From the IMG/VR virus record IMGVR_UViG_3300025086_000136, positions 1-31,061 of that record: DNA of 31,061 nucleotides. One strand, given 5' to 3'. This DNA comes from a virus. Below, one piece after another: positions 17,416 through 31,061 of the stretch; positions within the stretch are counted from its first letter, which is position 1, and each line of letters starts with the position of its first letter. A program made the position numbers and the translations under genes. Below the pieces are notes generated by a model. The model worked only from the letters and a program-made list of their open reading frames with translations. It was not told where the DNA came from and did no database searches.

Positions 17416-17425
17416 TCATCTCACC

Positions 17426-18127: not shown

Positions 18128-18148
18128 ACCATATCGCAGGAGGCTGAC

Positions 18149-18514
18149 ATGAATAACCTTTTTGAACAAAGTGCCCTACGAACACTGATGAAACTTCCTC
18201 GTATCAAGCCCAAAATCATGGGTGTTCCTGTGTCTATAGAGACTGTGAGAAACTTGTCAAGAGCAGGAAGAGACATTGCTATGATGAGATATGTTCCTGA
18301 TGATGTTAAGCAGATTCGGCTTGACATTTGTAAAGGATGCCCCAGTTGGAAAAACTACCGCTGTACCGAATGCGGCTGTCAAATGAGGGTCAAGGTCAGC
18401 CTAACATCAAGCGAGTGCCCCCTCAAGAAATGGGGCAGGCATGTCCCGTCGTTAAATCTCGGAGATGCGGGAATAGATACCAGTGAGCATGAAAAACGCT
18501 CCAAACAGTCCTAA
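18149..18514 (+). CDS. Small zinc-ribbon protein, the only rightward gene in the window
   Basis: The product has 121 residues. ATG 18149 follows AGGAGG with five bases between, an excellent ribosome binding site. Residues about 54-92 carry ICKGCPSWKNYRCTECGCQM and SSECPLKKW: Cys pairs CxxC and CxxCxC plus a final Cys, then a KW. This CxxC...CxxCxC...CPLxKW layout is a zinc-ribbon type I know from many tailed-virus small proteins; its role is not established. The N-terminus (MKLPRIKPKIMGVPVSIETV) is basic. The gene starts 21 bases from the divergent small-terminase candidate, and its last 63 bases overlap the 3' end of the leftward membrane-protein gene at 18452. Opposite orientation suggests separate regulation. 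Confidence 0.8.
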   Translation: MNNLFEQSALRTLMKLPRIKPKIMGVPVSIETVRNLSRAGRDIAMMRYVPDDVKQIRLDICKGCPSWKNYRCTECGCQMRVKVSLTSSECPLKKWGRHVPSLNLGDAGIDTSEHEKRSKQS

Positions 18515-18694
18515 CACAAGATAAGCCATGCTGTTGCTGTCCATTTTACTACTGGAAGTTAGCAACAACATAGACAGCGTGACAATAATAGTCAAGAGTT
18601 GAACCATTATCATGTCAACGATGACACTCTTTCTTGGAGCAAAAATCTCCATCGCTGTGTTGGATAAGCCCGTAAATCCGTAATCTCTCATCAT
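18452..18694 (-). CDS. Small membrane protein with two transmembrane helices (80 residues)
   Basis: Two hydrophobic segments, residues about 30-46 (QLLTIIVTLSMLLLTS) and 57-75 (MAYLVLGLFGAFFMLTGIYS), indicate a two-pass membrane protein. The start is ATG 18694, with an ATG three bases later; GGTGAT lies four to seven bases upstream and overlaps the stop of the preceding gene. The 3' end overlaps the rightward zinc-ribbon gene tail to tail. Size and topology are like many viral holin-type or membrane-remodelling proteins, but no family is recognised. It is the last gene of the leftward run that includes the GTPase and other small membrane proteins. Confidence 0.72.
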   Translation of the reverse strand: MMRDYGFTGLSNTAMEIFAPRKSVIVDMIMVQLLTIIVTLSMLLLTSSSKMDSNSMAYLVLGLFGAFFMLTGIYSRISEI

Positions 18695-18698
18695 GTTA

Positions 18699-19337
18699 TC
18701 ACCGTGTCCCCATCATTCTGCCCATAAAACTACCAGCGGCAGAGCCCGCTTTGTCCATGAATCCGTCATTTGCCAAAGCCGCGTTCAAAGCCCCTCCCAT
18801 CATGGACTGCTGTGCAAATGCCGCAATCTGCTGTTGTTGCATTTCTGCCTGTTGAATACTTTGTTGACTGGCCATTTGCAGTGAACTAAATTGATTTTTG
18901 ACATTCTCGGCACTCATGGTTTGAAGATTGTCAGGAAGTGAAGTGACATCCATTTTCATTTTACCTTCCTTTTCGTCAATGATGAACTCAGCGTTTTTGA
19001 GAACTTCCAACACTGAAAAACTCACGAGGTCGTTGAACATCTGCAAGAAAGTTGCCATCTGTGCTCCAACGACAAAACGGTCAATGGGTGCAAGTGTACG
19101 CATCATGGCCAGTTGAATCTCCATTTCGCTGGGAGGTGCCATTGGTTGTTGCATCATACCTTGTTGCATACCTGCTCCTCCCATCATGCCGCCCATAAAC
19201 GCGTTGTTTTGGGCTTGTTGCATCATGCCATTTTGCTGTGCAAATGGGTTCATTTGAGAGTTCATAGGAGGAGCGTTAGATTGCGCTCCAAGGTTAAGTG
19301 CACCGTTTTGTTGTTGTCCATTGTTGCCAAATAACAT
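18699..19337 (-). CDS. Met/Gln-rich protein of unknown function (212 residues)
   Basis: The first ~70 residues are low complexity (Asn, Gln, Met, Gly; for example MMQQAQNNAFMGGMMGGAG). A folded-looking middle follows, residues about 72-140 (EIQLAMMRTLAPIDRFVVGA then FNDLVSFSVLEVLKNAEFII). A Gln-rich helix and a Gly/Met-rich C-terminus complete it. GTGAGGTGAG sits just before ATG 19337. No family recognised. The Gly/Met/Gln repeats resemble the flexible linkers of the portal and the 630-residue protein, so a virion component is plausible. Encoded between a two-pass membrane protein and a zinc-binding protein. Confidence 0.7.
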   Translation of the reverse strand: MLFGNNGQQQNGALNLGAQSNAPPMNSQMNPFAQQNGMMQQAQNNAFMGGMMGGAGMQQGMMQQPMAPPSEMEIQLAMMRTLAPIDRFVVGAQMATFLQMFNDLVSFSVLEVLKNAEFIIDEKEGKMKMDVTSLPDNLQTMSAENVKNQFSSLQMASQQSIQQAEMQQQQIAAFAQQSMMGGALNAALANDGFMDKAGSAAGSFMGRMMGTR

Positions 19338-19346
19338 TTTCTCACC

Positions 19347-20348
19347 TCACTGTGTAAATAGCCCTTGCTCTGTTTGTGGGAGGGCACCTTGATTCATAAC
19401 ACCATTGGTCACCTCTTGGGGTAAATTTTGAGCCACGCTGGGTGGCGGGTGTTGCATAATACCGAGATTACCGATAGCATCGGAAAGAGTCGGCGTCATG
19501 TTGGTCATTTCCTGTTGAAACAATCTTAGGTCAAAGACAATCATAGTCACATCGTTGATGCCGGTTTCCGGGTTTTTGTAGTGAAGGAGGTTAATACCGT
19601 TGTAAGCCTTGGAGTCTTTTTCCAACTGCATAAAGAACGGCTCATACTTCTTGAGGAGTTCAGGAGTATTGTCTTTCTTTCGGACTATGGATATTGGCAC
19701 TGCTACTGTAGAAACCCCTTTCTTAACCATTTCTCGCATACCTGTTTTGGTCTTGTTGTGGTCTTTGTCAGCCTCGGATTCCCACTTGCACAACAAATGA
19801 TACAAGTGAAGATGTTCAGGGCAGTAGGTACCCTTCATTTTGCGACCGTTCGTAACTTGTTCCCGTGCCACAAACGGCTCCGGCGTACCTGTTACTGGAT
19901 TTTGCCAATACATTTCCCACAAACTCTTACCGCTTTCCTCATCGGTAATTTTAGCGTACAAGTTGTCGTACTTGATGAGTTCTTCGCAGTCGCACCCGTC
20001 AATGACGCATAGGTTGCTTTGACGATTGTAGCGATATTTCCGTCCCCAAACCCAGCGGAGAGGGTTAAACAAACTTCGCTTTGTAGGAGTTAGCAACTTA
20101 CGAGCCTGCTTGATGTCCTGTTTGCGAGCCTTTCTTGGGTCAGGATGACGACTTGGGTAGAAGTTCACTTTAGGTACCTCAATGTTCTGCTTGGCTATTT
20201 CTTGCATACCTTGCTGTGCGGCTTGCATTTCCATCAACTGTTCATGACTTGCGTTCCCTTGCTGGCCCAAGGCCACCAAATGAGACTGACTCATGTTTGC
20301 CAAATTGGCGTCACTCTGCGGTACTCCATATCCTCGTAATCTCATCAT
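19347..20348 (-). CDS. Probable zinc-binding protein of the membrane/GTPase block (333 residues)
   Basis: ATG 20348 is preceded by AAGGTGA five bases away; a GTG at 20357 lies on top of that site and is less likely. The N-terminal ~60 residues are Gln/Asn/Met-rich. A basic stretch follows (ARKQDIKQARKLLTPTKRSL). Cys and His residues in LCVIDGCDCEELI and YCPEHLHLYHLLCKWE could form one zinc site (residues about 115-205). Between them lies a motif-like IKYDNLYAKITDEESGKSLW. The C-terminal part is folded (NGINLLHYKNPETGINDV) and ends in a Gln/Pro-rich tail. No family recognised. It lies directly after the GTPase gene, so a shared complex is possible. Confidence 0.7.
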   Translation of the reverse strand: MMRLRGYGVPQSDANLANMSQSHLVALGQQGNASHEQLMEMQAAQQGMQEIAKQNIEVPKVNFYPSRHPDPRKARKQDIKQARKLLTPTKRSLFNPLRWVWGRKYRYNRQSNLCVIDGCDCEELIKYDNLYAKITDEESGKSLWEMYWQNPVTGTPEPFVAREQVTNGRKMKGTYCPEHLHLYHLLCKWESEADKDHNKTKTGMREMVKKGVSTVAVPISIVRKKDNTPELLKKYEPFFMQLEKDSKAYNGINLLHYKNPETGINDVTMIVFDLRLFQQEMTNMTPTLSDAIGNLGIMQHPPPSVAQNLPQEVTNGVMNQGALPQTEQGLFTQ

Positions 20349-20358
20349 TTTCTTCACC

Positions 20359-21075
20359 TTAACTTAACAAATCCAACATTGTATTTTCTACATTCCAACC
20401 AATTTTCGTAGCCATCATTCCCCTCTTCGTAGGAACACCCGCTTTTTGGAGGCGTACGAGGTCTTCTCGGAACGGGTCAAACATTCTGTGTTCACCAAGG
20501 CGTTGCTGTTGCCACAGTATGTTTGCTTGCTCATCCCACCATTCATCCGCTTTGTTTGCCACCAACATAACCATTTTCGGAACATATCTCTTACCTTTCC
20601 AGCGACTTTTCAAATTACGATAGCGATACTGCCTATGAACGATTGCATCTACAAGAAATTTAAATCCTCCTACGGCTTGCACAGCAGGGTCTCCTCCTTG
20701 TGTACAGCGATGGTCAAACAAAAATATGATGGCCTCTACTTGTCTCGCTACCATGTCGTCCGTCCAAAGATTCCAAAAGCGTTCTTCTCCAGCAATGTCA
20801 GAGGAATATACCACACGCTTGTCGCCTTTCCAAGAAACACGCTTCCGAGTCGCACCGGGAAGTAAAAAGCGATTGAAACCGGGTACTTTGAAGTGCTTGG
20901 TACGCTCGTCAAGTGGAATGTCCTCCATCTCTCCGGGCGTTGTCATGTAGCGGTCAAGCGTAGTTTTACCAACCATTGTCGGACCGTATACGCCTACTCG
21001 CCTTGGTTTCCAGTAGTGGTACAACTCTTTGGCGAACACCACGCCGCCAACAAGTGCGCTACCTCCCAGTGACAT
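20359..21075 (-). CDS. Small GTPase-like P-loop protein, probably membrane-associated
   Basis: The product has 238 residues. GTPase motifs appear in order: P-loop GPTMVGKTTL (31-40), G3 DIAGEE (93-98, the DxxGxE of Ras/Arf-like GTPases) and G4 NKAD (174-177, the guanine-specificity motif). Residues 1-22 (SLGGSALVGGVVFAKELYHY) are moderately hydrophobic and may anchor it. A long insert lies between G3 and G4 (RYRNLKSRWKGKRYVPK, basic). Layout and an N-terminal hydrophobic segment recall Arf or SR-beta-like GTPases; the exact class is uncertain. GGGGAG precedes ATG 21075, which overlaps the stop of the upstream membrane-protein gene as TGATG. Adjacent genes encode one- and two-pass membrane proteins, suggesting a GTP-regulated process at the host membrane. 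Confidence 0.85.
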   Translation of the reverse strand: MSLGGSALVGGVVFAKELYHYWKPRRVGVYGPTMVGKTTLDRYMTTPGEMEDIPLDERTKHFKVPGFNRFLLPGATRKRVSWKGDKRVVYSSDIAGEERFWNLWTDDMVARQVEAIIFLFDHRCTQGGDPAVQAVGGFKFLVDAIVHRQYRYRNLKSRWKGKRYVPKMVMLVANKADEWWDEQANILWQQQRLGEHRMFDPFREDLVRLQKAGVPTKRGMMATKIGWNVENTMLDLLS

Positions 21076-21332
21076 CAGTCTCTCCCCGAAAAAATAGCGT
21101 TTGACCAACTCTGCAACTTACCTTTGAGCCAATCACCTGAAGATTCCCACAGATTCCAATCAGTGTAAAATTCAAAAGCACTGACAACAAATGCAGTTGT
21201 CGTTGAAAATATCACCACTTTCAACCAACCCCAGCCGCGTTCGTAAGCAACATCCACCGTGTTGGCGATGTGCATGCTACGAAGGGTTTCCTCCACAGCG
21301 TCGTCGCTGGGGGTCTTGAAAATGCGACCCAT
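21075..21332 (-). CDS. Single-pass membrane protein (85 residues)
   Basis: One hydrophobic segment, residues about 37-56 (WLKVVIFSTTTAFVVSAFEF), separates a charged N-terminal domain (DDAVEETLRSMHIANTVDVA) from an amphipathic, Trp-rich C-terminus (DWNLWESSGDWLKGKLQSW). The C-terminal helix could lie on the membrane surface. GTGAT precedes ATG 21332. The stop overlaps the GTPase start as TGATG, so the two are probably made together and may form a complex. No family recognised. Confidence 0.75.
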   Translation of the reverse strand: MGRIFKTPSDDAVEETLRSMHIANTVDVAYERGWGWLKVVIFSTTTAFVVSAFEFYTDWNLWESSGDWLKGKLQSWSNAIFSGRD

Positions 21333-21338
21333 GTGGCA

Positions 21339-21929
21339 TCACTTGTCCTTTTTCTTGAATGTCCCGTCAGCGTTTCGCTGAGGTTCCTTGCCATCGTCAA
21401 AGTCAAATCCGAGAGAAAGAGGTGCAGAGGTCTTAGCAGGTACGAAGTCAACAGTACCGGTACCAGCACCCTTCATGCGTTGCTCAATCCAAGGTGGTGT
21501 TTTACCGGGGTTATGTTCCATCCAGTTAAGTTCGGACTCCAATTGTGCCTCTTGCATGCGGATTTCCATGTCTTGTCGGCGTCGGTCAAATGACATTTCC
21601 ATGCTACGGTAGCGTGTACGGCGTTGCTTTTCCTGAGAAGCAATCCTTGCCCGTTCGTCCATACCTTGCTGGAAGAACATTTTGAACAAGTAGTAGGCTA
21701 CACCTTGTACTGCAAATGCGGCCATAGCGTAAGTGATTCCGTTGACTGTCGGGTCATCCAATTTAAGCCAGTAACCTGCATCAAAAACAGCAATGGCTAT
21801 CCCTATTGACACGGCTTGGGTGAGAATCAAACCCATCAATCTTATCTCTGCTTGGTCAGCGTCTCTCATTGGCTCTCTACCGCTCTGCACAACAATCCCT
21901 CTCGGTGTTCGCACCACTGTTGTACTCAT
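21339..21929 (-). CDS. Two-pass membrane protein with a long charged coiled coil (196 residues)
   Basis: Two hydrophobic segments, residues about 33-52 (GLILTQAVSIGIAIAVFDAG) and 65-88 (ITYAMAAFAVQGVAYYLFKM), are followed by a charged helix (DERARIASQEKQRRTRYRSM...) that could form a coiled coil of 50-60 residues. The tail is Pro/Gly-rich and ends in DGTFKKKDK. GTGAT lies upstream of ATG 21929. It follows a 78-base intergenic gap, the largest in this part of the map, so it may begin a new transcript that also encodes the single-pass protein, the GTPase and the downstream genes. No family recognised. Confidence 0.75.
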   Translation of the reverse strand: MSTTVVRTPRGIVVQSGREPMRDADQAEIRLMGLILTQAVSIGIAIAVFDAGYWLKLDDPTVNGITYAMAAFAVQGVAYYLFKMFFQQGMDERARIASQEKQRRTRYRSMEMSFDRRRQDMEIRMQEAQLESELNWMEHNPGKTPPWIEQRMKGAGTGTVDFVPAKTSAPLSLGFDFDDGKEPQRNADGTFKKKDK

Positions 21930-22007
21930 AAAGGTATCACAAAAATATGAAAGGAGGGCCGAAGAGGGAGAGAGTGCCCCTCCGACCCGGTCACTGCGAA
22001 GCAGTCA
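21930..22007 (-). promoter_or_regulatory. Intergenic gap with hairpins, probable terminator and/or promoter region
   Basis: Right after the stop at 22008 a perfect 5-bp stem with a 3-base loop occurs (21993-22005, ACTGC/GCAGT). A second inverted repeat pairs GGAGGG with CCCTCC (21953-21958 with 21978-21983), and the minus strand then runs into the T-rich TTTCATATTTTTG. That order resembles a terminator for the accessory block. The T-rich segment lies only 16 bases before ATG 21929, too near to be a standard leaderless promoter for that ATG. Confidence 0.4.
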
Positions 22008-23207
22008 TCACTCTTCTTTCTTTTCAGAGTCAAGTTTTTCCCGCTTGCCGTCCTTTGAGGGACCGGGGCCTGCTTTAGAGCCGATAACAATGACCATACC
22101 GTGGGCTGGTTTCTTGCTTTTTTTGTCATCTGCCTTTTTCTTGTCATCGCACTTACAGTTTTTACCACATTTAGGGCACTCTGCTTTATTCATACTACAG
22201 TGCATTTTACCGATGCAGTCTTCTTTATCGCACTCGGAGCACTTTGCTTTGTACATCATTTCTTCTACTTGCTTTCTGATTTCTTCACCTGTGTTATTCA
22301 CAAACATATTCTCACCTTTCGTTGTTCCAAATCCACCGAACTCTTGCTGTGCTTCAAAGCCAGTGGCCCTTGGGTCGCTACGATAAGCGTCCGGGTTCCA
22401 TATCTGACGGTCAGCAACAGTGTTGCCCTGTACATTGGAAATATCATTGATGCCGAGTCCTCCTGACCCGAATCCTTGGGTTTGGCCTTGCATACCAAAG
22501 CCGCTATCTTGGTCGTTGTCTTGTCCAAGTAGTGATTGTGCGCCGTAAGCACCCATGAGCGTAGCGGCAACGGGGCCTAACTGCTCTTCTGCTTGTCCGA
22601 GTGCTTGGAAACCACGACCAAGTGTACGGTTGAATCTGCTGTCGCCAACTCTCCGTAGACCTGTGGCACCTGCATCAAAGCCTCGCCCCGCTGATTGTCG
22701 CGCCGCACCAAAAGGCGTCATGGTGGAATCAATGTAGCCTTCGGGCGTCACCTTACTACGCAAACCGGGGTACAGCATGTCCTGCTGACGAGCAACGGCC
22801 TCTGCGGTATCGCTACCAACTCGGCTGGCCGCTCTCGCTCTGTTCGCTTGCCGACCTGCTCTGACTGCCTGTGCTCCTCTCCCTGCCCCACTGACATAAG
22901 CCAAAGGATTCAAACCCTGTAATGCACCAGTAGCGAATCCAAGTGCCCGTTGACCGCCTGTAGCATCTTCAATTTCTTTTTCTGCAAGTAGACCACCTGT
23001 AAAAGGGTCTTGGAAAGTAGCACCGCCATGAAAGCCGGGGTCAAGTTTTCCTGTCTCGGGATTGAAAACCCTACCCCCTGCGCCTGTGAATCCACCCAAT
23101 AAACCGAAAGCGGCGGGAACGGCCAAAGGTAAAATCTTCTCAACCTTGTCAGGGTCACCTTTCACGACCGACCAAGCGTGGTCAATCGGTAAAGAAGACT
23201 CCGACAT
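22008..23207 (-). CDS. Tagged accessory protein with a Cys-rich zinc-binding C-terminus (399 residues)
   Basis: From ATG 23207 the protein begins MSESSLPIDHAWSVVKGDP, a copy of the shared tag. This placement near residue 10 is why I prefer this ATG to one 66 bases upstream. Residues about 25-45 are hydrophobic and glycine-rich (ILPLAVPAAFGLLGGFTGAG). Long Gly/Ala/Arg/Gln-rich regions follow. Near residue 320 to 355 there are about nine cysteines (AKCSECDKEDCIGKMHC, then ECPKCGKNCKCDD), enough for two zinc sites. The last ~45 residues are Lys-rich. No family recognised. The tag and basic, zinc-binding tail suggest a DNA-associated protein carried in the virion. Confidence 0.75.
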   Translation of the reverse strand: MSESSLPIDHAWSVVKGDPDKVEKILPLAVPAAFGLLGGFTGAGGRVFNPETGKLDPGFHGGATFQDPFTGGLLAEKEIEDATGGQRALGFATGALQGLNPLAYVSGAGRGAQAVRAGRQANRARAASRVGSDTAEAVARQQDMLYPGLRSKVTPEGYIDSTMTPFGAARQSAGRGFDAGATGLRRVGDSRFNRTLGRGFQALGQAEEQLGPVAATLMGAYGAQSLLGQDNDQDSGFGMQGQTQGFGSGGLGINDISNVQGNTVADRQIWNPDAYRSDPRATGFEAQQEFGGFGTTKGENMFVNNTGEEIRKQVEEMMYKAKCSECDKEDCIGKMHCSMNKAECPKCGKNCKCDDKKKADDKKSKKPAHGMVIVIGSKAGPGPSKDGKREKLDSEKKEE

Positions 23208-23385
23208 GTATGCTGGCAGGCCTTTTATCGTGATAAGCCTGTTGGAGATACGAATAATGCTCAGAAGCCTCAATCAGCAGACACAGAGCCTCGTCGCTAC
23301 CGTCCTGCAACTCTTGGATTTTCTGCAAATTCCACTTGCTGACCTTTAGAATCTCAACAAACAGGTCGTCCCAAATGCGTTGCAA
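23182..23385 (-). CDS. Small acidic helical protein (67 residues, TTG start)
   Basis: The start is TTG 23385, chosen because AGAGGAG lies six bases upstream and overlaps the end of the preceding gene. The product is mainly helical (DDLFVEILKVSKWNLQKIQE, then LCLLIEASEHYSYLQQAYHD). Its last codons overlap the start of the Cys-rich protein gene by 26 bases in another frame. No motif or family recognised. Tight packing and a good ribosome binding site are the evidence that it is real. Confidence 0.6.
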   Translation of the reverse strand: MQRIWDDLFVEILKVSKWNLQKIQELQDGSDEALCLLIEASEHYSYLQQAYHDKRPASIHVGVFFTD

Positions 23386-23396
23386 GTCGTTCTCCT

Positions 23397-23957
23397 CTAT
23401 CTGACCAGCACGACATCCGACTTAAGTGTGCCTCGCTCTTTAAAGTGGCGGGCTCTATTGGCGTGAGGGTCTTCGGCTACCAGCGTGTGGTCCTTCGTGT
23501 GGCTCATGTCAGGTCCACCCTTGCCGTCAATGCCACGGTGTCGGCGCTCTCGTCGGAGTTCACTGCGATACTTGACACGCTCCGGTGTAGACTCGTACTT
23601 CTTGTCGTACTCCAACTTGTGCCGCTTGGCTTCGGGGCTGATAGGGTTCTTGAGGACAAGAACCGATTTGACAATTGTCGGCTTCCCACCAACACCCTGC
23701 TTCTTGCTACGCTTACGCTTAGTCGCCGCACGCTTCTGCCCTTCGCTCATGGAGCCACTGGTCTTAGGAGTCTTGCTGGACACCTTAACTGATGGGCGAC
23801 ACTTGGGGTAGCCTTTGCTACCTTTCTTGGCCTTGCTCCTTCCGCACGGCGGGTGCTTACCGTCCTTGTCCTTGCGTGATACATCCACCCACTTCTCCTT
23901 GAACCAACGATTCAAGTCCTTAACGACGAGTGTATCGTGGCAAGTACAAGTGGACAT
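23397..23957 (-). CDS. Basic protein with a DUF5872-like domain and an HNH-like C-terminal segment
   Basis: Residues about 20-70 (KWVDVSRKDKDGKHPPCGRS, then YPKCRPSVKVSSKTPKT) match what I know as DUF5872, a short domain in giant viruses and tailed phages. A Lys/Arg-rich linker follows. The C-terminal part (KYESTPERVKYRSELRRERR then DMSHTKDHTLVAEDPHANRA) recurs in viral proteins and resembles a small nuclease or DNA-binding fold around an H and an N; I cannot show that it is catalytic. ATG 23957 starts MSTCTCHDTL, with no AWxLLK tag. Strong positive charge fits nucleic-acid binding. It heads a run of small virion-type domains with the next three genes upstream. Confidence 0.78.
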   Translation of the reverse strand: MSTCTCHDTLVVKDLNRWFKEKWVDVSRKDKDGKHPPCGRSKAKKGSKGYPKCRPSVKVSSKTPKTSGSMSEGQKRAATKRKRSKKQGVGGKPTIVKSVLVLKNPISPEAKRHKLEYDKKYESTPERVKYRSELRRERRHRGIDGKGGPDMSHTKDHTLVAEDPHANRARHFKERGTLKSDVVLVR

Positions 23958-23961
23958 CTAT

Positions 23962-24369
23962 TCAGCCTCTTTTCTCTTGATTCTGCTGAGATGTTTTGTC
24001 ATCATCTATAGGACCGCCTGCGGCCCAAGTGTAGCATGTTCTGTCCTTGTGACACTTGAAATCATGCATCCAACAATAACCTAAGTCACCTTCTAACGGC
24101 ATACATTCTTTCATACGAGGACTAATGTCAAAAGCAATACAGTTACTACAATTTGACTCTTTGGCCACTTCGGGTGTAGTGTTCCAATGCTTTGCCGCAT
24201 CAACCCAGTAACCTTCATCTGTTAAGTTCAAAGGTCCGTACTTTATATGCTCGGACTTAATAGCAGTGTTTCTATTCTTCGTATTCAACTTCAAGTCTCT
24301 TGTAGCCATAGGGCAAGTTGACCTCTGCTTGATAATGGCCCAAGCCTGTTCCATTAGTAGCATATTCAT
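23962..24369 (-). CDS. Tagged Cys-rich protein of a widespread viral family (135 residues)
   Basis: The N-terminus MNMLLMEQAWAIIKQR carries the shared tag. The rest matches a family I know from marine phages: KYGPLNLTDEGYWVDAAKHW, then SNCSNCIAFDISPRMKECMP and GYCWMHDFKCHKDRTCYTWA, ending in GGPI. Six conserved cysteines and two histidines could hold zinc or an iron-sulfur cluster; the function is not established. ATG 24369 overlaps the stop of the upstream gene as ATGA. The tag at the N-terminus of an otherwise common protein suggests it was added for a virus-specific purpose. Confidence 0.8.
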   Translation of the reverse strand: MNMLLMEQAWAIIKQRSTCPMATRDLKLNTKNRNTAIKSEHIKYGPLNLTDEGYWVDAAKHWNTTPEVAKESNCSNCIAFDISPRMKECMPLEGDLGYCWMHDFKCHKDRTCYTWAAGGPIDDDKTSQQNQEKRG

Positions 24370-24791
24370 TTCTTCTTCCCCTTTTTGCCTTTGAACTTAC
24401 CTTTGCAGTATTGCACGGCCCATCCATTGGCGTAGGCTGAGGGATACACCTTGAACTTACGCTTCGCCGCCGCTTTACCAGCGGGGCACAGTTTCTTTTC
24501 TAAGAAGTCAAACGCACTGCCTATGCCGACGCAATGTCCGCACTCGCAACCTTTAGCCACATCTCTTTCCGGCTCGTGTGTGTAAATGTCTCCGTCTTCA
24601 TGAATGAATACTTTACCACTTCGCACCATACTGTCAAGAGTTGATTTCAAATCCTGCTCATCTGATATAACCTTTCTAAGGTTCTTCATACCAAGAGCAC
24701 CGCCTTCTTTCTCAATCTCACGCAAAATAATCTGCTCTGTGCTGTCTGCTGACTTCTTCAACAAAGTCCATGCAGTTTCAAGCGAAGTCAT
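24366..24791 (-). CDS. Tagged winged-helix-like protein with a basic PSAYAN-type C-terminal domain (141 residues)
   Basis: The protein begins MTSLETAWTLLKKSADS, a copy of the shared tag. Residues about 18-72 (REIEKEGGALGMKNLRKVIS then LDSMVRSGKVFIHEDGDIYT) look like a winged-helix DNA-binding domain. A CECGHC cluster follows (about 82-87). The C-terminal LCPAGKAAAKRKFKVYPSAY then ANGWAVQYCKGK is a short basic domain found in many phages and large DNA viruses, with a Lys-rich end. The stop overlaps the next start as ATGA. Three modules in 141 residues (tag, winged helix, basic domain) make it a good candidate for a packaged DNA-binding protein. Confidence 0.8.
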   Translation of the reverse strand: MTSLETAWTLLKKSADSTEQIILREIEKEGGALGMKNLRKVISDEQDLKSTLDSMVRSGKVFIHEDGDIYTHEPERDVAKGCECGHCVGIGSAFDFLEKKLCPAGKAAAKRKFKVYPSAYANGWAVQYCKGKFKGKKGKKK

Positions 24792-25237
24792 GCTCGCTCA
24801 CTCCTTGCGTCTATCAAATCTTGAAGAGTAGGCCCTCTGTACGGGCGACCCATGGTGCTTTCGCCCGAATCGGGGTCACTGACATAAAAGGAAGAAGGCA
24901 TTCCTATCCCTCGTTCCTTTTCTGTTTTATAAGGCAGGTATTGATGAGGTAACCTGTGTTCGGGAGCCATATCCGATATAGAATGAGCACTTTGTCTAAA
25001 CATACCCGGTGCGAAAGGAGCGTACTCGCCAGTCAACCCAGCAGGAACAACGCCCACCCGCTCCAAAGCCTCGTTGACATCTCTCAATTCTTCTTCTTCG
25101 TACACCGAAGAATAGCCGCCCTTGTCAAACCCTTCATCTGTTCTATGTTTCGGAACAGCAGGCAAGAACCCGTGCTTCTCTGCAAAAGCAAAGTTTTCCC
25201 GCTTTAAAAGAAGCCACGCTTGGTCCATTGGGTTCAA
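24788..25237 (-). CDS. Tagged accessory protein of unknown function (149 residues)
   Basis: From TTG 25237 the protein reads MNPMDQAWLLLKRENFAF, a copy of the shared tag at the very N-terminus. I chose this TTG because GAGGTGG lies five bases upstream and the codon overlaps the preceding stop as TTGA; a longer reading from 25324 would run through the neighbour. The remainder is hydrophilic with acidic patches (VYEEEELRDVNEALERVGVV), an APFAPGMFRQS segment and a C-terminus reading MGRPYRGPTLQDLIDARSER. No family recognised. Confidence 0.75.
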   Translation of the reverse strand: MNPMDQAWLLLKRENFAFAEKHGFLPAVPKHRTDEGFDKGGYSSVYEEEELRDVNEALERVGVVPAGLTGEYAPFAPGMFRQSAHSISDMAPEHRLPHQYLPYKTEKERGIGMPSSFYVSDPDSGESTMGRPYRGPTLQDLIDARSERA

Positions 25238-25626
25238 CAGTTCCACCTCTTGAGTGATGCTCCCTTGGGGGTGAGTTTGCCTTTCTTGCTGGTCGGACCT
25301 TTGACACCCGACATGCGAGCGCAAAACGATTTACGACGCTTGGCAGATTTACTACCGGGTTTCAACTTACTTGGCTTTTTGGTGACGGGTGGCTTGAGGT
25401 TTGCACCCGTCTTACGCTTAGCGGCGGCACGACCTTTGGCGTTCAGCCCGCCTTTCTTGTTATGCTTGTTAGGGTTGTAGCCATGGAATGGCTTGGACTT
25501 TTTTTTGGCTTTGAGAACAGCAAGGCTGAGTTCCATCGGACTGCAACAATCACAGAACGAGACATCAGACCAATCAGTCTTACCGACGACATCCGCCTCG
25601 GTCAACCAGTCTATAGCGTCCGCCAT
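25234..25626 (-). CDS. Basic DUF6321-like protein with a degenerate tag (130 residues)
   Basis: Residues about 45-130 (GGLNAKGRAAAKRKTGANLK, then RRKSFCARMSGVKGPTSKKG, ending LKRWNC) match a basic domain I know as DUF6321, common in phages; its function is unproven. The N-terminal ~30 residues contain CDCC and DWSDV. Just before the domain is SPMELSLAVLKAKKK, which keeps the PM, spacing and final LK of the tag but replaces AW with SL. The start may be ATG 25626, which lacks a clear ribosome binding site, or ATG 25536, which would put PM-type tag residues at the N-terminus. Strong positive charge suggests nucleic-acid binding. Confidence 0.78.
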   Translation of the reverse strand: MADAIDWLTEADVVGKTDWSDVSFCDCCSPMELSLAVLKAKKKSKPFHGYNPNKHNKKGGLNAKGRAAAKRKTGANLKPPVTKKPSKLKPGSKSAKRRKSFCARMSGVKGPTSKKGKLTPKGASLKRWNC

Positions 25627-25652
25627 GTGGTTTGTGACAGCAATTCTCTACA

Positions 25653-26993
25653 TCAAGGTTTCTTCAACAGTCGCCAAGCCATGTTCATCGGCTCACCGGT
25701 TATGATGCGGTCGTCTGTAATGTCGTACTGATAGTCGGGGCTATTTTCAGGTAGAACGAAATCGTTCGTACCTTGGTCATAAAAGCGGTCCCGAGCAAGT
25801 TGATGCGCCTTTGGCAAAATTGGTTGAGGAGAGTAGCCTTGCCTCCCGTGCATGGCTTCTCTCGTTGCCTGCTCAAGAACATGGGCTGGCATCTCGGTTT
25901 GAAACTCTGAGCCGCGTCCCTGCTGTGCATCAAGTGCGTGACCAACTTCATGCGCCATGACGGGAGCGAGACGATTCGTAAAGCGACCGACCGTTTTTTC
26001 TCCGAAGTCTTGGTCTGCTGGGGCCAACATACCTTGGTCGTCAGTACGAAACATGGCCGAATCGCCGTGAAACTTGAGGCCGTAAGGTGTCAAAGCCACC
26101 ATTTGATTCGTGTCTCCTTGTTCATCAGGAGCCGTATAGCCTTGCCACGCAGGGGTCAGCGAAGGCCCAGTAGGTAAATCACGAATGTCGTACATGAGTT
26201 TGCGGTCGGCTTTGAGCATTTTGTTCGCTTCATCTCGTGACCTTGCCATTTCTCTCCACGCTTCGGGAAGGTTGGAGTAGTCTTTCTCTTGAGGTATGAG
26301 TGACTGCGGCACGGTCTGTTCAGGCTCTTCGGGTTCCTGTTGCATCTCGGCAGGTACTTGGCGCTCCAAGAAATCAAACCGCTCCGGTAAGTCTTCATGA
26401 ATATCCGTATTATCGTATGCACTTTCCAAACTCGTGGTAGGCGTGACCTTGATGGTCTGCCGTCTGCGGTCACTTAACGGGCGATGTCCGACTGTCGCCA
26501 AGACCAGTTTACCGGTTTTCTTGTCCAGCACAAAGTGCGGCGTCATGACCGTACCAAGTCCCATCTGCTTTTCACTTGAATCAACTTTCGGCATGTCGGT
26601 TGTGAATGCGTTAAACGCTACACTGGGTTGGTTGTGAGGCAAATCTGAATTTTGGTCACCGGGTGGCAACTTTTGGCCCATTACCTCTTTCAATTCAGGG
26701 TGATTCTCAATCAGGTCGTTCGCCATCATCGCCATGATGGCTTCAATGGTAAAGCCATACTGACCCAACCCTCTCCGTTGAAACTGATGAGGAAGGTCTT
26801 GGTCGGGGTGATACCGGTCCCGTTTGCGGTCAAGGTAGTGTTGAGTGGGTCGCACACTCACATGCTCCATACCGCCTTCTTCTATAGCGCGAATCATGCG
26901 GTCAGGGAGTGTCTTGTAGTAATCAGGAGTGAGGTCGCCGTAGAAATCAAAATCTTTGAGCAGAATCCAAGCCTGCTCAAACGGTGCGACCAT
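25653..26993 (-). CDS. HExxH metallopeptidase-like protein tagged at both ends (446 residues)
   Basis: The zincin motif HEVGH lies at 348-352 in VMAHEVGHALDAQQG; a downstream Glu near residue 379 (ATREAMHG) could be the third zinc ligand. HEVGHALD is the usual form in zinc peptidases of the gluzincin or ImmA/IrrE type, though the exact family is unclear. The N-terminus MVAPFEQAWILLKDFDFY and the C-terminus GEPMNMAWRLLKKP are both copies of the shared tag, the only protein here with one at each end. The middle is Pro/Glu-rich and probably flexible. ATG 26993 follows a 57-base gap. A virion peptidase acting on host envelope or on virion proteins at infection is inference. Confidence 0.8.
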   Translation of the reverse strand: MVAPFEQAWILLKDFDFYGDLTPDYYKTLPDRMIRAIEEGGMEHVSVRPTQHYLDRKRDRYHPDQDLPHQFQRRGLGQYGFTIEAIMAMMANDLIENHPELKEVMGQKLPPGDQNSDLPHNQPSVAFNAFTTDMPKVDSSEKQMGLGTVMTPHFVLDKKTGKLVLATVGHRPLSDRRRQTIKVTPTTSLESAYDNTDIHEDLPERFDFLERQVPAEMQQEPEEPEQTVPQSLIPQEKDYSNLPEAWREMARSRDEANKMLKADRKLMYDIRDLPTGPSLTPAWQGYTAPDEQGDTNQMVALTPYGLKFHGDSAMFRTDDQGMLAPADQDFGEKTVGRFTNRLAPVMAHEVGHALDAQQGRGSEFQTEMPAHVLEQATREAMHGRQGYSPQPILPKAHQLARDRFYDQGTNDFVLPENSPDYQYDITDDRIITGEPMNMAWRLLKKP

Positions 26994-27050
26994 AGTTGAC
27001 CCATGCTACGCTACATGAAAAGCGTTGAGGTGGCTGGCAAATACCGTGAA

Positions 27051-27200
27051 TTACTCGTCCATGGTAAATGATTTACACATCTCGCAATACCAAGCGATGC
27101 CGCGAAATACTCCTTGCAATTTCAAATACACCCGCCTTGTCGGATGGTGATGGCAATGTTCGCAACGCTTACTCTTCTTCTTTCCAGCCAAAGTAAACAC
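27051..27200 (-). CDS. Tiny zinc-ribbon protein (49 residues)
   Basis: Translating the minus strand from GTG 27200 to TAA 27051 gives a basic N-terminus (AGKKKSKR), then CEHC with HHH following, about 24 residues, and CEMCKSFTMDE. Two CxxC pairs at this spacing make a classic zinc ribbon. GGAG lies four bases upstream of the GTG. The gene overlaps the 3' end of the preceding membrane-protein gene by 32 bases in another frame and fills most of an apparent 175-base gap. The function is unknown; small zinc ribbons in viruses are often transcription or DNA-binding cofactors. Confidence 0.65.
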   Translation of the reverse strand: MFTLAGKKKSKRCEHCHHHPTRRVYLKLQGVFRGIAWYCEMCKSFTMDE

Positions 27201-27357
27201 CTTGCTCCATTCCTCTTAGCGCACGGAAGCGCATGGTATGGTTGAACGACTTGAGTGCTCTAACATCGTGTTCCAAGTCGCGTAAGCGTTCCCTTACCAT
27301 CTTAGCGTAGACGGTTAAGACGAACAAAGCGCCGATAAACACGATGTCCCATACCAT
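27169..27357 (-). CDS. Small single-pass membrane protein (62 residues)
   Basis: From ATG 27357 the protein opens with a transmembrane segment (VWDIVFIGALFVLTVYAK), followed by a charged helix (MVRERLRDLEHDVRALKS) and an aromatic/acidic tail. GGGGAT lies four bases before the ATG. A longer form from TTG 27405 would overlap the upstream stop as TTGA, with no clear ribosome binding site, and add 16 residues. N-in orientation with a cytoplasmic coil would fit the charges. No family recognised. Confidence 0.65.
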   Translation of the reverse strand: MVWDIVFIGALFVLTVYAKMVRERLRDLEHDVRALKSFNHTMRFRALRGMEQGVYFGWKEEE

Positions 27358-27401
27358 GAATCCCCGATTGGGGCTCAATACTTGAAGTTTGGTGTACCAA
27401 A

Positions 27402-28460
27402 TCAAGCGGCTCGGTCAATTTGGTTCTGCTGAGTAGAGCCGTCTGAACGACCTCGCTGACCCGCAAATTGCATCAGACGCTGACGAATGGCTTGAGATTC
27501 ATCTTCGCCGGGGTCTTGGAACATAGCCATGGTCTCTTCGTCCATAGGTACATTGAGGTCAGGCTTCTCGCCTTGTCGCACACGCTCAAGGTTTTCTCGG
27601 TAGCGGTTGCTCATTTGTCGCATCGGACGCTCTTTGCTCTCTTTGGGTTCGGTTGGCTCCCTTACGGTTTGGTCTTCAAAGGTACCGCCAGCGGCTGTAG
27701 CCATACCGGAGAGAATGTCAGCGATTTTTTCTTGCTGAGTTGGCCTGCGTTGCTCTTGAGGGTCGTCTACAAACTCACGGCTTGCACCACCGAGGCGTGC
27801 ACCTGCACCCACACCTTCAACATTTTGAAGCGTGGTGGCTCGTCGTCGGCGACCACCTTGCCTCAATCGCTTTCCTTCGTCGTCCACGCCACGCAATGGT
27901 AAGTTCATACCTGCACCGGAACCGCCACGGATGTTGGTTCGTCCGCCACGCTGTCCACCGGTCAATTGACGACCAGCCGTTTGCTCCATACCTTCACGAG
28001 CCAGTCGTTGTTCCCTTGGAGAAAAGAATGATTCTTCGGGCATAAGTTCGTACCCCGGAACACGAGCCATACTGGTACCGCCACTGCCAGCCATTTCACC
28101 TACAGTGCCTCTTGGAGTGTGAGCAATCATCGTCTCAGTCATTTCTTGCAGAGGCGACAAGTCTCGCTGAACTCGGCGGTCGGTAGCAGGAAGTGCTTCG
28201 GGCGCAAATTCTTCGCCGGGGCGCATGTCGCCAGCCTCAGAAGGCATGTCCACCTTCCGAGAAGGTGTTACCATTTGGTCTCCTTCATACTCAGCGGGCA
28301 TGGTTCGTCGCATGTGCATAACATCACCAAGGCCTTCTTCCCCGGCTTCGGCTCTGCGCCGTGCAAGCATCTGCAAAACAGCAGGAGGAAGCGTTCCCGT
28401 GTAGCCCTGTTGACCGGGGATGGCTTTCAGTAAATTCCAAGCGTGCATAAATGCGCTCAT
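27402..28460 (-). CDS. Tagged, largely disordered accessory protein (352 residues)
   Basis: The N-terminus MSAFMHAWNLLKAIPGQ carries the shared tag. The rest is rich in Gly, Arg, Glu, Pro and Met, with Arg/Gly-rich regions (GGQRGGRTNIRGGSGAGM, RQGGRRRRATT) that could bind nucleic acid, and an acidic C-terminal third (MDEETMAMFQDPGEDESQ). No family recognised. ATG 28460 overlaps the stop of the HMG-CoA-lyase-like gene as ATGA. Composition and tag together fit an internal virion protein. Confidence 0.75.
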   Translation of the reverse strand: MSAFMHAWNLLKAIPGQQGYTGTLPPAVLQMLARRRAEAGEEGLGDVMHMRRTMPAEYEGDQMVTPSRKVDMPSEAGDMRPGEEFAPEALPATDRRVQRDLSPLQEMTETMIAHTPRGTVGEMAGSGGTSMARVPGYELMPEESFFSPREQRLAREGMEQTAGRQLTGGQRGGRTNIRGGSGAGMNLPLRGVDDEGKRLRQGGRRRRATTLQNVEGVGAGARLGGASREFVDDPQEQRRPTQQEKIADILSGMATAAGGTFEDQTVREPTEPKESKERPMRQMSNRYRENLERVRQGEKPDLNVPMDEETMAMFQDPGEDESQAIRQRLMQFAGQRGRSDGSTQQNQIDRAA

Positions 28461-29299
28461 GCACTGGGGATAGCGTCATTGGTTAAAGACATACTGATGC
28501 GCTCGGCCAGTCGTTCGGCCAACCCAAGTCGCTTTTCGTCAACACCAGTGTGAAAGCCCCATGCGTGCAGGTGCCTGACGAGCGTGGTGGTGTTGATGTT
28601 GGCTCCACTGCCCTCGGCAAAAGGACAACCGCCGAGCCCACCGATGCTGGAATCAAACTGGCGTATGCCATTAAGTAAGCCACTTCTTACTAAGGCCACT
28701 GCTCGGCCTTCGTCGTCTTTATGGTGCAAGTGAAGCGCCGCTTTGATGCCCTCGTTCTTCGCCAGTTCGGCCAGTTCAGCGACTTCTTTCGCCGTCCCGA
28801 CGCCCACGGTATCGGAAAACACAACAGTGTGGCCGAACATCTTGGCATCTCGGATGCACGAAATAAGTGTGGAAATTGAAGGCATTCCGCTGTAAGGCGA
28901 ACCGAAAGCCATGCTGATGTAGACTCGGACATTTTTCTTGGGCACCTTGTCCATGAAGGTCTTGTACATCAGCACAATCTCACTGCGGGTCTTGCCCATG
29001 TTCTTCATGTTGAAAGTCTCGCAGGGTGAAAATACAATGTTGAACTTTTCTACACCAGCGGCTACGCCCCTGTCGTAGCCACGCTTGTTCATCACCAATG
29101 CACTGCCACGGTCAAACACCTGCTCAGCGTCTGCCATTTGCGGCACAAGGCGAGGGTGAGCAAAACTCACTTCCTCAATGTCAGCAAGCCCGCTGTCGTA
29201 CAGAAGGCTGATGAGTTCCCGTTTTGTCTCGGTAGGTACGAAGGGCTTGATGTACTGGAGTCCATCACGAGGGCCAACCTCGTAGATGGAGATGTTCAC
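28457..29299 (-). CDS. HMG-CoA lyase-like enzyme (DRE-TIM metallolyase), candidate auxiliary metabolic gene
   Basis: HMG-CoA lyase splits 3-hydroxy-3-methylglutaryl-CoA into acetyl-CoA and acetoacetate. The signature residues are present: VGPRDGLQ at 8-15 (catalytic Arg and metal-binding Asp), EEVSFAHPRLVPQMAD at 42-57, HLH at 190-192 (metal-binding histidines) and DSSIGGLGGCPFAEG at 216-230, with the catalytic loop Cys 225 and Asn residues 234/236. The length of 280 residues is close to the usual ~300. One deviation: the usual HxHDTYG reads HLHHKDDEG, so activity or substrate may differ. GTG 29299 follows AGAGGA, and both ends overlap neighbours (GTGA, ATGA). It lacks the tag carried by flanking proteins, so it probably acts in the cell. 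Host targets could be leucine breakdown or the HMG-CoA pool feeding mevalonate/archaeal lipids (inference). Confidence 0.88.
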   Translation of the reverse strand: MNISIYEVGPRDGLQYIKPFVPTETKRELISLLYDSGLADIEEVSFAHPRLVPQMADAEQVFDRGSALVMNKRGYDRGVAAGVEKFNIVFSPCETFNMKNMGKTRSEIVLMYKTFMDKVPKKNVRVYISMAFGSPYSGMPSISTLISCIRDAKMFGHTVVFSDTVGVGTAKEVAELAELAKNEGIKAALHLHHKDDEGRAVALVRSGLLNGIRQFDSSIGGLGGCPFAEGSGANINTTTLVRHLHAWGFHTGVDEKRLGLAERLAERISMSLTNDAIPSA

Positions 29300-29502
29300 T
29301 GGATTCCTCTCCGCATGCCGTTGAAGCAGGCTTGGTGAAAAGCCTCCTCGTCTTCAATGTAAATCACGGTGTCCATGGGGTCGGGCGTTGCCAGCCAAAT
29401 GGTCACAAACCCTGCGATAAATGAGAGGATGAAGAGTGTCGGCAACAGCATGTGCAGACCGAGCGCGGTGTAGAAATTAAACTTGTCGGCCAACGCCTTC
29501 AT
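29296..29502 (-). CDS. Small single-pass membrane protein (68 residues)
   Basis: A strong transmembrane segment spans residues about 15-37 (GLHMLLPTLFILSFIAGFVT), followed by an acidic stretch (DTVIYIEDEEAFHQA) and a basic C-terminus. ATG 29502 overlaps the preceding stop as ATGA, and its stop overlaps the lyase GTG as GTGA, so it is translationally coupled on both sides. No family recognised. It could be a membrane partner or spacer protein in this operon. Confidence 0.7.
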   Translation of the reverse strand: MKALADKFNFYTALGLHMLLPTLFILSFIAGFVTIWLATPDPMDTVIYIEDEEAFHQACFNGMRRGIQ

Positions 29503-30125
29503 GGCAAGTAGCCCAAGTCACTAAAAGGCGACGGGGGATAAAGTCGCCTTAACTCTTCATCAGTCGGGTCGCGACCTTCGTCCCGAGTAAACTGGTTAAT
29601 TCTACCTTGAGGTGTGTTTCGTCCTGCTGACACGCGGATGGGGTAAGACGGCCTTGGTTGTCTTGAAATGCCCATGGGTTGGGACAATTCATCCTTATCT
29701 TGGTGGGGGTTTACAAAGCCACCTTCCAAATAGGTTGGCGCTTCTTGAATGCGGTCTTCTGCATTGTATTCGGGCATAGACACAGGTCGGCCTCGGTATG
29801 GCAACGAGCGGAGATTAACTGGCCCGCCCATAAAACTACGCTCACGGCCTGAGTTTTCCGAAGGGTCCATGAGTCTCTGCATTGTTCTCATACGCTCTCG
29901 TGAGTCTTGTGTTGGGAACGGGCTTACTCCGGCGATATTCTGCGGCTTTCGTAGAGCCATTGAGTAGGCATTGGGGTCAATGGTTCCGAGATTAGACACT
30001 GGTCGTTGGAGTCCATGGGCTTCGGCAAGGTCAGGGTGAGTGTCATAGTCACGGTATTGACTGTACGCCTGCATGCGGGGGTCTGATTTGAGAAGCGACC
30101 AAGCCTGTTCCAGTGGCGTCATCAT
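29499..30125 (-). CDS. Tagged accessory protein, paralogue of its upstream neighbour (208 residues)
   Basis: The protein begins MMTPLEQAWSLLKSDPRMQA, the best-formed copy of the shared tag. It is clearly related to the protein encoded next door at 30148: both share SDPRMQA, HPDLAE, NLGT(I/V)DPNAYSMAL, MDP, a GGF segment, and a C-terminal R/QxPTDEEL. The two diverge in the middle. No known domain recognised; composition is Pro/Arg/Asp-rich. Start ATG 30125 or 30122, without a strong ribosome binding site. Tandem duplication with retained tag and C-terminus suggests the ends are functional. Confidence 0.75.
   Translation of the reverse strand: MMTPLEQAWSLLKSDPRMQAYSQYRDYDTHPDLAEAHGLQRPVSNLGTIDPNAYSMALRKPQNIAGVSPFPTQDSRERMRTMQRLMDPSENSGRERSFMGGPVNLRSLPYRGRPVSMPEYNAEDRIQEAPTYLEGGFVNPHQDKDELSQPMGISRQPRPSYPIRVSAGRNTPQGRINQFTRDEGRDPTDEELRRLYPPSPFSDLGYLP
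29956..29980. repeat. 25-base direct repeat shared by the paralogous genes (copy 1)
   Basis: These 25 bases are identical to 30497-30521 and encode the conserved DPNAYSMAL segment of the paralogous proteins. Identity at synonymous positions suggests a fairly recent duplication or continuing gene conversion. Confidence 0.8.
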
Positions 30126-30147
30126 GGTATCATCTCGTGGTGTAGAC

Positions 30148-30669
30148 TCAGCCGAGTAGTGCCATCAACTCTTCATCGGTTGGCTGTCTTGCATTATCAT
30201 AGTAGAAGCGGTCAATACTTGCTTGAGGTGAACTTGATGGTGGTTGGCTGAGCGCAAACCCACGCTCTTCCGGCCTACTCATTCTACTTATCTTCGGCCC
30301 TTCAAAACCCCCTACCAAATCAGTGCGTGGGATGGATGGGTCCTCAGCATAAGCGGTGCTTCGGTAATTGGGCTTTCCTGTTAAATTGATTGGCGAAAGG
30401 CTATCAAATTTGCTCTCATAACCTAAATTCTTTGTCGGGTCCATGAGACTTTGCATTACCGCATGGCGTTGAGCAGGGGTAAGGTACTGCGATAGTGCCA
30501 TTGAGTAGGCATTGGGGTCAACGGTCCCGAGGTTTCCGACTCTACCTTCCAAATCATGGTGCTCTGCAAGGTCGGGATGCCTTCTTCCAAACCTCGTCCT
30601 CGCCGTGTGCGCTTGCATGCGAGGGTCAGACTTGAGCACGCTCCAAGCGATGTCAATAGGCCGACCCAT
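30148..30669 (-). CDS. Tagged accessory protein, first gene of the leftward operon (173 residues)
   Basis: From ATG 30669 the protein begins MGRPIDIAWSVLKSDPRMQA, a copy of the shared tag followed by the same SDPRMQA as its paralogue at 29499. I prefer this ATG to one at 30735, because it puts the tag at the N-terminus as in the other proteins and because a TATA-like box lies about 27 bases upstream. Conserved blocks with the paralogue are HPDLAEHHDLEGRVGNLGTV, DPNAYSMAL, MDPTKN and QPTDEELMAL. No known domain recognised. It is probably the first and perhaps most strongly expressed gene of the accessory block. Confidence 0.75.
   Translation of the reverse strand: MGRPIDIAWSVLKSDPRMQAHTARTRFGRRHPDLAEHHDLEGRVGNLGTVDPNAYSMALSQYLTPAQRHAVMQSLMDPTKNLGYESKFDSLSPINLTGKPNYRSTAYAEDPSIPRTDLVGGFEGPKISRMSRPEERGFALSQPPSSSPQASIDRFYYDNARQPTDEELMALLG
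30497..30521. repeat. 25-base direct repeat shared by the paralogous genes (copy 2)
   Basis: Identical to 29956-29980; it lies in the same coding position of the paralogous gene. Confidence 0.8.
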
Positions 30670-30690
30670 GACTATCGGAGGCGGGCTTAG

Positions 30691-30699
30691 GTAAAAAAG
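30691..30699 (-). promoter_or_regulatory. Candidate TATA-like box of the leftward operon
   Basis: The minus strand reads CTTTTTTAC, centred about 27 bases upstream of ATG 30669, the same spacing as the better box before the protease gene. No ribosome binding site lies between it and the ATG, consistent with a leaderless transcript. The match to the archaeal TTTAWATA consensus is only partial. Confidence 0.42.
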
Positions 30700-30711
30700 C
30701 CAGTGGTCTCT

Positions 30712-30745
30712 TTGTGATACCAAAACTTTTGTCACAATTTTTTTT
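30712..30745 (+). promoter_or_regulatory. Nested palindrome with adjacent T-run upstream of the leftward promoter
   Basis: TTGTGA (30712-30717) pairs with TCACAA (30732-30737), and inside it CAAAA pairs with TTTTG around one central C (30721-30731). Together they make an 11-bp stem with a 3-base bulge (TAC at 30718-30720). Eight T residues follow on the plus strand (30738-30745). It could be a terminator for rightward or incoming transcription, or an operator: it lies about 30 bases upstream of the candidate TATA box. Confidence 0.5.
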
Positions 30746-31061
30746 GTGGAGCGCCGTGTGGGGTTAAAGGAGGCTAAACTCCCGTCTAAACTCCATCTCT
30801 CCGTCTAAACTGGGGCGTCTAAACTGGCCGTCTAAACCGCAGTAGCCCGTTCTATAGACCGTGGCACGGCGTCGTCTAAACTGCCTCGTGTCATGCGTAC
30901 GCCTATAGGTGGTAGCGAGCCCGCTCCCGTTTGCGTAAGCCACCCGTCCCTCTCGTATGCGGGCGGGCCTGCTGGTTTTGCGTGGGCTACCCCTGCCAGT
31001 ACCAGCCGTCCCGCTGGTGTGCGGGTAGGTTGGGCGTGGGGAGGAGTCCCTCAACCCACAC
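30746..31061. other. Gene-free, GC-rich control region
   Basis: The last ~220 bases are roughly 64% G+C by hand count, above the neighbouring coding DNA. The left part holds the CGTCTAAAC repeat array. Further right, an imperfect direct repeat TTGCGT(AA/GG)GC(C/T)(A)CCC occurs near 30931-30945 and 30978-30992. One 96-codon minus-strand reading frame is open here, but it contains the repeat array and has an Arg/Thr/Gly-rich composition unlike the viral proteins, so I do not call it. Position ahead of the long leftward operon suggests an origin, packaging site or regulatory region. Confidence 0.55.
30772..30882. repeat. Array of five CGTCTAAAC(T/C) direct repeats plus a partial copy
   Basis: Ten-base copies start at 30783, 30802, 30816, 30829 (last base C) and 30873, with a partial copy GGCTAAACT ending at 30780. 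Start-to-start spacing is 19, 14, 13 and 44 bases. All are in the same orientation (AGTTTAGACG on the minus strand). Irregular, same-strand short repeats beside a promoter are typical of iterons bound by a replication initiator or of cooperative regulator sites. Confidence 0.75.

Follow-up and report, generated by a model that had tools for sequence, protein, structure and literature searches.

HMG-CoA Lyases of Magroviruses and Cells

Magroviruses are known to encode an HMG-CoA lyase, which is listed for the group in the Aoguangviridae ICTV profile (PMC10768690) and appears as HMGCL, 'involving in leucine degradation', among the magrovirus auxiliary genes of Xu et al. 2023 (PMC10160649). The statement in a preliminary description of the DNA studied here, that no viral HMG-CoA lyase is well established, is out of date given that both sources list the magrovirus enzyme. 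The magrovirus gene reported for the Aoguangviridae (Poseidoniales virus YSH_150918) and by Xu et al. 2023 matches the present one in enzyme name, virus group, and role as an auxiliary metabolic gene, and presumably belongs to the same lyase family. In their accessible text, the magrovirus reports provide the name and pathway of the enzyme, whereas the analysis of its active site and loop, the promoter-like element, the transmembrane (TM) partner, and the exchange of the gene are presented only here. No earlier description of the element, the TM partner, or the incongruence between lyase and core genes was found in the literature covered, which is incomplete; while the lyase gene is known for magroviruses, its cassette structure, element, partner, and incongruent inheritance look new.

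Among cellular HMG-CoA lyases, the human (HMGCL; 2cw6/3mp5), Brucella (1ydn), and Bacillus (1ydo) enzymes have in common with the viral enzyme a TIM barrel, the RDG motif, E72, HxH, GGCP[YF], and Asn275, with 32–35% identity over the structural match. The viral enzyme differs in being ~8 residues shorter after residue 62 and in its longer β7-α7 loop, as well as in the replacement of HDTYG, a Tyr167 position that is not fixed, the change of Ser201 to Val, and its placement in a clade of its own. A membrane-associated HMG-CoA lyase is also known from mammals, er-cHL, which has its own N-myristoylation motif (PMC6941031). This enzyme offers a parallel for a membrane-placed lyase if the small TM protein encoded beside the magrovirus gene is a tether; in er-cHL, however, the motif lies on the enzyme itself, whereas in the magrovirus a separate, coupled TM gene encodes the candidate partner.

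Source Virus and Distribution of the Lyase Gene

The window, i.e., the whole stretch of DNA analyzed, comprises the 31,061 bases of an IMG/VR record; positions 14985–30971 match the end of a viral contig of 100,986 bases with 100% identity. This 101-kb contig carries a family-B DNA polymerase (PolB), a Cpn60/TCP-1-type chaperonin, and a large terminase (TerL); genes for a head protease, a portal, and a terminase are present in the window. Magroviruses (order Magrovirales) are described as having genomes of ~90–110 kb that encode PolB, a chaperonin, and head/tail proteins (PMC10768690, PMC12999244, PMC10160649), and as the genes found here match that description, the lyase gene is viral. Judged by its gene content, the source is a magrovirus-type virus, a tailed virus of the abundant, ocean-surface Poseidoniales archaea. 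The identity of the window with the 101-kb viral contig and the presence of lyase relatives in >80 viral contigs, the latter from a search of related viruses that the preliminary description had proposed, agree with its view that the gene is not a host contaminant.

Three scans of IMG/VR gave 17, 80, and 80 loci, for the most part on one shared set of contigs. The lyase was present in 7 of the 17 PolB-anchored contigs longer than 55 kb and in six of the eight of about 80 kb or more, shares that may be biased upward because lyase-bearing contigs had served as the basis of the PolB profile. The lyase is a frequent accessory gene of magroviruses but not a universal one. Three distant lyase copies (L370, L371, and L369) were noted on viral contigs of 25–52 kb with no match to the magrovirus polymerase profile, and may represent fragments or another virus lineage.

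Family Assignment and Phylogeny

The lyase gene lies at positions 28457–29299 on the minus strand and encodes a protein of 280 a.a from a GTG start; the open reading frame had been correctly delimited before, albeit without its strand. The product matched the Pfam HMGL-like family (PF00682, E = 7e-24) and the NCBIfam HMG-CoA lyase model NF004283 (E = 1e-64, 218.6 bits), with the best NCBIfam model for anything other than HMG-CoA lyase at 35.2 bits, and its closest PDB matches were HMG-CoA lyases (Brucella, human, and others) with E-values down to 2e-41. On the E-values from Pfam, NCBIfam, and PDB, chance is excluded as an explanation of this reading frame. Both the window lyase and a divergent relative (L161, 220.2 bits) fell short of the curated NF004283 cut-off of 246 bits and, for this reason, we use the name HMG-CoA-lyase-type enzyme rather than assigning the protein as a certified member of that subfamily.

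The AlphaFold2 model of the window lyase (pLDDT 94.7) superposed on solved HMG-CoA lyases with Z scores of 35.5–36.7 and an rmsd of 1.6–2.0 over 261–270 residues, with the next structural family being the aldolase of aldolase-dehydrogenase complexes (Z 27.7). A maximum-likelihood phylogeny of 83 rows separated the lyases from synthase- and aldolase-type outgroups with a support of 100/98 and gathered the viral lyases in a single clade (100/100), whose long stem measures 1.69 changes per site. No donor lineage of the viral gene emerges from this tree, whose rows include no archaeal lyase. No relative of the window lyase closer than 31% was found in phage records, 40% in plasmids, or 41% in bacterial genomes, and PHROGs held no family for the lyase or its neighbors. 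Among near relatives, dN/dS ranged from 0.05 to 0.19, indicating that the protein is maintained.

The preliminary description had proposed an HMG-CoA lyase homologue, with a phylogeny to set it against isopropylmalate and homocitrate synthases, and the HMMs, the fold scores, and a place in the tree among the lyases, not the LeuA-type synthases, bear this out. We consider the acquisition of a synthase-type relative (isopropylmalate, citramalate, or homocitrate synthase) to be exceedingly improbable; the shared DRE-TIM superfamily and weak matches to synthase models speak for it, yet those models reached ≤35 bits compared to 219 for the lyase model, the structural Z was about 26 compared to 36 for lyases, and the tree sets the lyase clade apart at 100/98. 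The lyase hallmarks (the GGCPF Cys and the ligand Asn) are also invariant, and a 280-a.a product is too short to include the regulatory domain.

Active Site and the HxH Register

Residue conservation was counted over 88 viral lyase sequences, with the roles of the active-site residues taken from human HMG-CoA lyase (PMC6941031). The equivalent residues in the window and human enzymes are R11/R41, D12/D42, E42/E72, D163/D204, H190-L-H192/H233-x-H235, C225/C266, and N234/N275. For human Gln45, Ser75, Ser201, Asp204, and Glu279, the assignments follow the known human structure. The equivalents of Arg41, Asp42, Gln45, Glu72, Ser75, Asp204, Cys266, and Asn275 were invariant throughout the viral set; among them are the RDG arginine, metal Asp, and Glu72 equivalent (R11, D12, and E42; 88/88), and both the Cys of GGCP[YF] and the ligand Asn (C225 and N234; 88/88). 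H190 and H192 were likewise present in 88/88. The GGCPF motif and metal-ligand Asn region, containing Cys225 and Asn234, corresponds to residues 224–238 (positions 28586–28630, minus strand). All of the elements named at first sight, namely VGPRDGLQ, HLH, and GGCPF with the Asn following it, are therefore present, with their key residues invariant among the viral sequences.

The metal-binding HLH (residues 190–192) and the start of the rebuilt β7-α7 loop, through residue 197, occupy positions 28709–28732 (minus strand). Two registers are possible for the HxH motif. HMMER, one MAFFT alignment, and the Viterbi HMM-HMM alignment chose the ungapped register, which places H192 on the first His and Lys194 at the second. 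In this register, the second metal ligand would be lost, with residue 194 (K/R/N) in its place and His190 and His193 as new residues, leaving an enzyme with a new metal site or inactive as a lyase; consistent with this, His was found at 194 in 0/40 viral rows as opposed to 25/25 cellular rows. However, distant magrovirus copies keep His at 190 and 192 while carrying Tyr or Glu at 193, and the posterior (maximum-accuracy) HMM-HMM alignment pairs the viral ALHLH with the cellular ALHxH, the column confidences being ~0.8. Furthermore, strand β7 covers residues 186–193 in the viral AlphaFold2 model and 200–205 in a bacterial model, so that between fixed anchors (D163/D174 and β8, offset 11) the viral strand is placed two residues earlier. 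Given the distant copies, the posterior alignment, and the modeled strand boundaries, we favor the register that makes HLH the HxH, most likely the metal-binding pair with which strand β7 ends; loss of the ligand is improbable, and we rejected a reading without the second metal His on the same three lines of evidence. The preliminary description's reading of HLH as the HxH thus holds on conservation, posterior alignment, and model boundaries, with the ungapped alignments pointing the other way.

The region following HLH had also been described as altered relative to HxHDTYG, and correctly so. The remainder of HDTYG is replaced, and the loop is rebuilt and 2–3 residues longer than in cellular enzymes. 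The equivalent of Tyr167, a residue named as critical for HMG-CoA lyase (PMC6941031), is Tyr136 in the window and Tyr in 51/88 viral copies, with H, D, or F in the others; the Ser201 equivalent is Val in 88/88; and the Glu279 equivalent is Thr in the window (Thr238) and Glu in most relatives. With Tyr167 variable, Val in place of Ser201, and a rebuilt loop behind HxH, the enzyme may have come to act on a different substrate. An enzyme of the same family and chemistry acting on a CoA thioester other than HMG-CoA, with the acyl pocket and loop changed, would suit these differences (Y/H/D/F at the Tyr167 equivalent, an invariable Val at Ser201, Thr at E279 in the window, and the 2–3 added loop residues) along with the score under the NCBIfam cut-off. 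We regard this as a minority possibility, given that the metal and main catalytic residues are all invariant and the top structural matches are all HMG-CoA lyases.

Candidate TM Partner and Promoter-like Element

Directly upstream of the lyase, a gene for a small single-TM protein (positions 29296–29451, minus strand; 51 a.a, MLLPTLFILSFIAGF...ACFNGMRRGIQ) ends in a stop codon that overlaps the lyase GTG by exactly 4 bases (29299/29296). Its true start is probably 29451 and not the 29502 of the longest open reading frame; we rejected the latter as its N-terminal FNFYTAL is the promoter-like element in translation. In about 42 contigs (~half), the lyase start overlaps the stop of such a small gene by exactly 4 bases, with the encoded protein being 43–58 a.a long and containing a single hydrophobic segment; among the relatives grouped with the window, its tail ends in ACFNGMRRGIQ. 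A profile of the small TM protein matched 9/17 lyase-positive and 0/8 lyase-negative contigs, with a tenth, marginal match (19.7 bits, internal stop) left out of the nine.

Downstream, a gene at positions 27402–28460 (minus strand), whose product bears an N-terminal AWxLLK tag, overlaps the lyase by 4 bases (28457/28460), and this overlap suggests that the two are probably in the same transcription unit. The 4-base overlaps noted in the preliminary description are thus real on both sides of the lyase (29299/29296 and 28457/28460); a further one, between the small reading frame and the gene at 29499, is probably an artefact of taking the longest frame, as comparison places the start of the small gene at 29451, with the element lying in the gap.

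The promoter-like element, AAGTTTAATTTCTACACCGC, is conserved in alignment and lies at positions 29465–29484 on the minus strand, its sole match within the window. The sequence AAGTTTAATTTYTACACCGC is located upstream of the ATG of the small TM gene, and the TTTAATTT box starts 30 nt ahead of this ATG at 29451, a spacing shared by most contigs. When 89 loci were searched with ≤4 mismatches, the element was found within 330 bases upstream in 46 and elsewhere in three. In whole contigs, it occurred at most once each (11/17 lyase-positive and 0/5 lyase-negative), and a reversed-pattern control gave 0 matches in whole contigs. Ten of the 11 whole-contig matches adjoin the lyase or the small gene, with the exception (G020, 2 mismatches) lying away from the lyase. 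Three loci without the small gene (L113, L118, and L125) have the element directly ahead of the lyase. In archaeal leaderless transcripts, a TATA box stands at such a distance before the start and has such a composition, and from its sequence we infer that the element is a TATA-type promoter of the cassette, probably yielding a leaderless mRNA. A variant element, GGTGTTAAATCTACACC, was seen at a similar distance upstream of the lyase unit in seven loci (L148, L152, L139, L143, L144, L151, and L155), and may represent another class of promoter within a subgroup of magroviruses.

The lyase had been portrayed as lying inside a virion operon, which is partly right; however, element-bearing units seem to have their own promoter, the position of the gene differs between virus genomes, and the enzyme is without the AWxLLK tag of its neighbors. 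Cassette sites were observed either before AWxLLK-tagged virion-region genes or after large tail-type genes facing the chaperonin.

Exchange between Virus Lineages

Pairwise identities across 15 contigs were compared by Spearman correlation with 2000 permutations. PolB, terminase, and chaperonin identities agreed mutually (Spearman 0.82–0.86, 0/2000 permutations), whereas lyase identity correlated with PolB, TerL, and chaperonin at 0.06, 0.15, and 0.23 (permutation p 0.28, 0.15, and 0.10), respectively. For example, the window lyase is 77% identical to that of one contig (G013) with a PolB identity of 40%, and 66% identical to that of another (G009) with a PolB identity of 80%. The DNA of the element and small gene is 82–97% identical between the window and seven loci (L004, L100, L101, L103, L105, L008, and L145), while their sequence just upstream is near random level. 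Given its own element, its overlapping TM gene, and a lyase divergence unlinked to the core genes, the cassette appears to be exchanged among magroviruses, an accessory gene thus moving between virus lineages while the core genes stay together.

Proposed Role during Infection

We consider it probable that the gene encodes a functional magrovirus lyase, most likely cleaving HMG-CoA (or a close analogue), from an exchanged cassette with its own promoter. In this enzyme, the metal would be held by Asp12, His190, His192, and Asn234, with Arg11, Glu42, and Cys225 as the predicted catalytic residues. During infection, HMG-CoA (or a close 3-hydroxy-3-methyl dicarboxylyl-CoA) would be converted to acetyl-CoA and acetoacetate, so that carbon of leucine or of the mevalonate pathway would be tapped for acetyl-CoA. 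The lyase would be expressed from a compact cassette under a TATA-type promoter of its own, and the small TM protein, whose link to the enzyme is a genetic one, may tether it.

Archaea use HMG-CoA for isoprenoid lipids, and the Poseidoniales have been described as degraders of amino acids and fatty acids. The benefit to the virus could be either a gain of acetyl-CoA or a brake on lipid synthesis. In a more elaborate scheme, which we think doubtful, the cassette would be a membrane-targeted weapon, with the TM protein holding the lyase at the host membrane, HMG-CoA being destroyed before it reaches HMG-CoA reductase, isoprenoid lipid synthesis being blocked, and the cassette and its promoter being traded as hosts differ. 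The lyase cassette, with its own promoter-like element and a candidate membrane partner, would place a widespread virus enzyme at a node common to leucine breakdown and isoprenoid lipid synthesis, and is a directly testable case of an archaeal virus rewiring host metabolism.

Tagged Proteins of the Virion Region

An xxAWxLLK-like N-terminal motif is common to eight or nine virion-region proteins that otherwise differ, at 30654, 30110, 28448, 26978, 25225, 24779, 24351, and 23183 on the minus strand, with a variant at 17019; the protein at 25653–26993 also has a C-terminal AWRLLKKP. The motif resembles a tag for targeting or scaffolding, perhaps one that the head protease cuts. In one locus (L099, upstream of the lyase at 1838), the lyase is separated from the small TM gene by an additional AWxLLK-tagged gene of 89 a.a, an arrangement indicating that a tag gene can enter the cassette. 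Elsewhere in the window, between the portal and terminase genes, the protein encoded at 10237–11556 (minus strand) contains an HNH-endonuclease-like part at residues 293–394 (phrog_5046, 1.6e-7).
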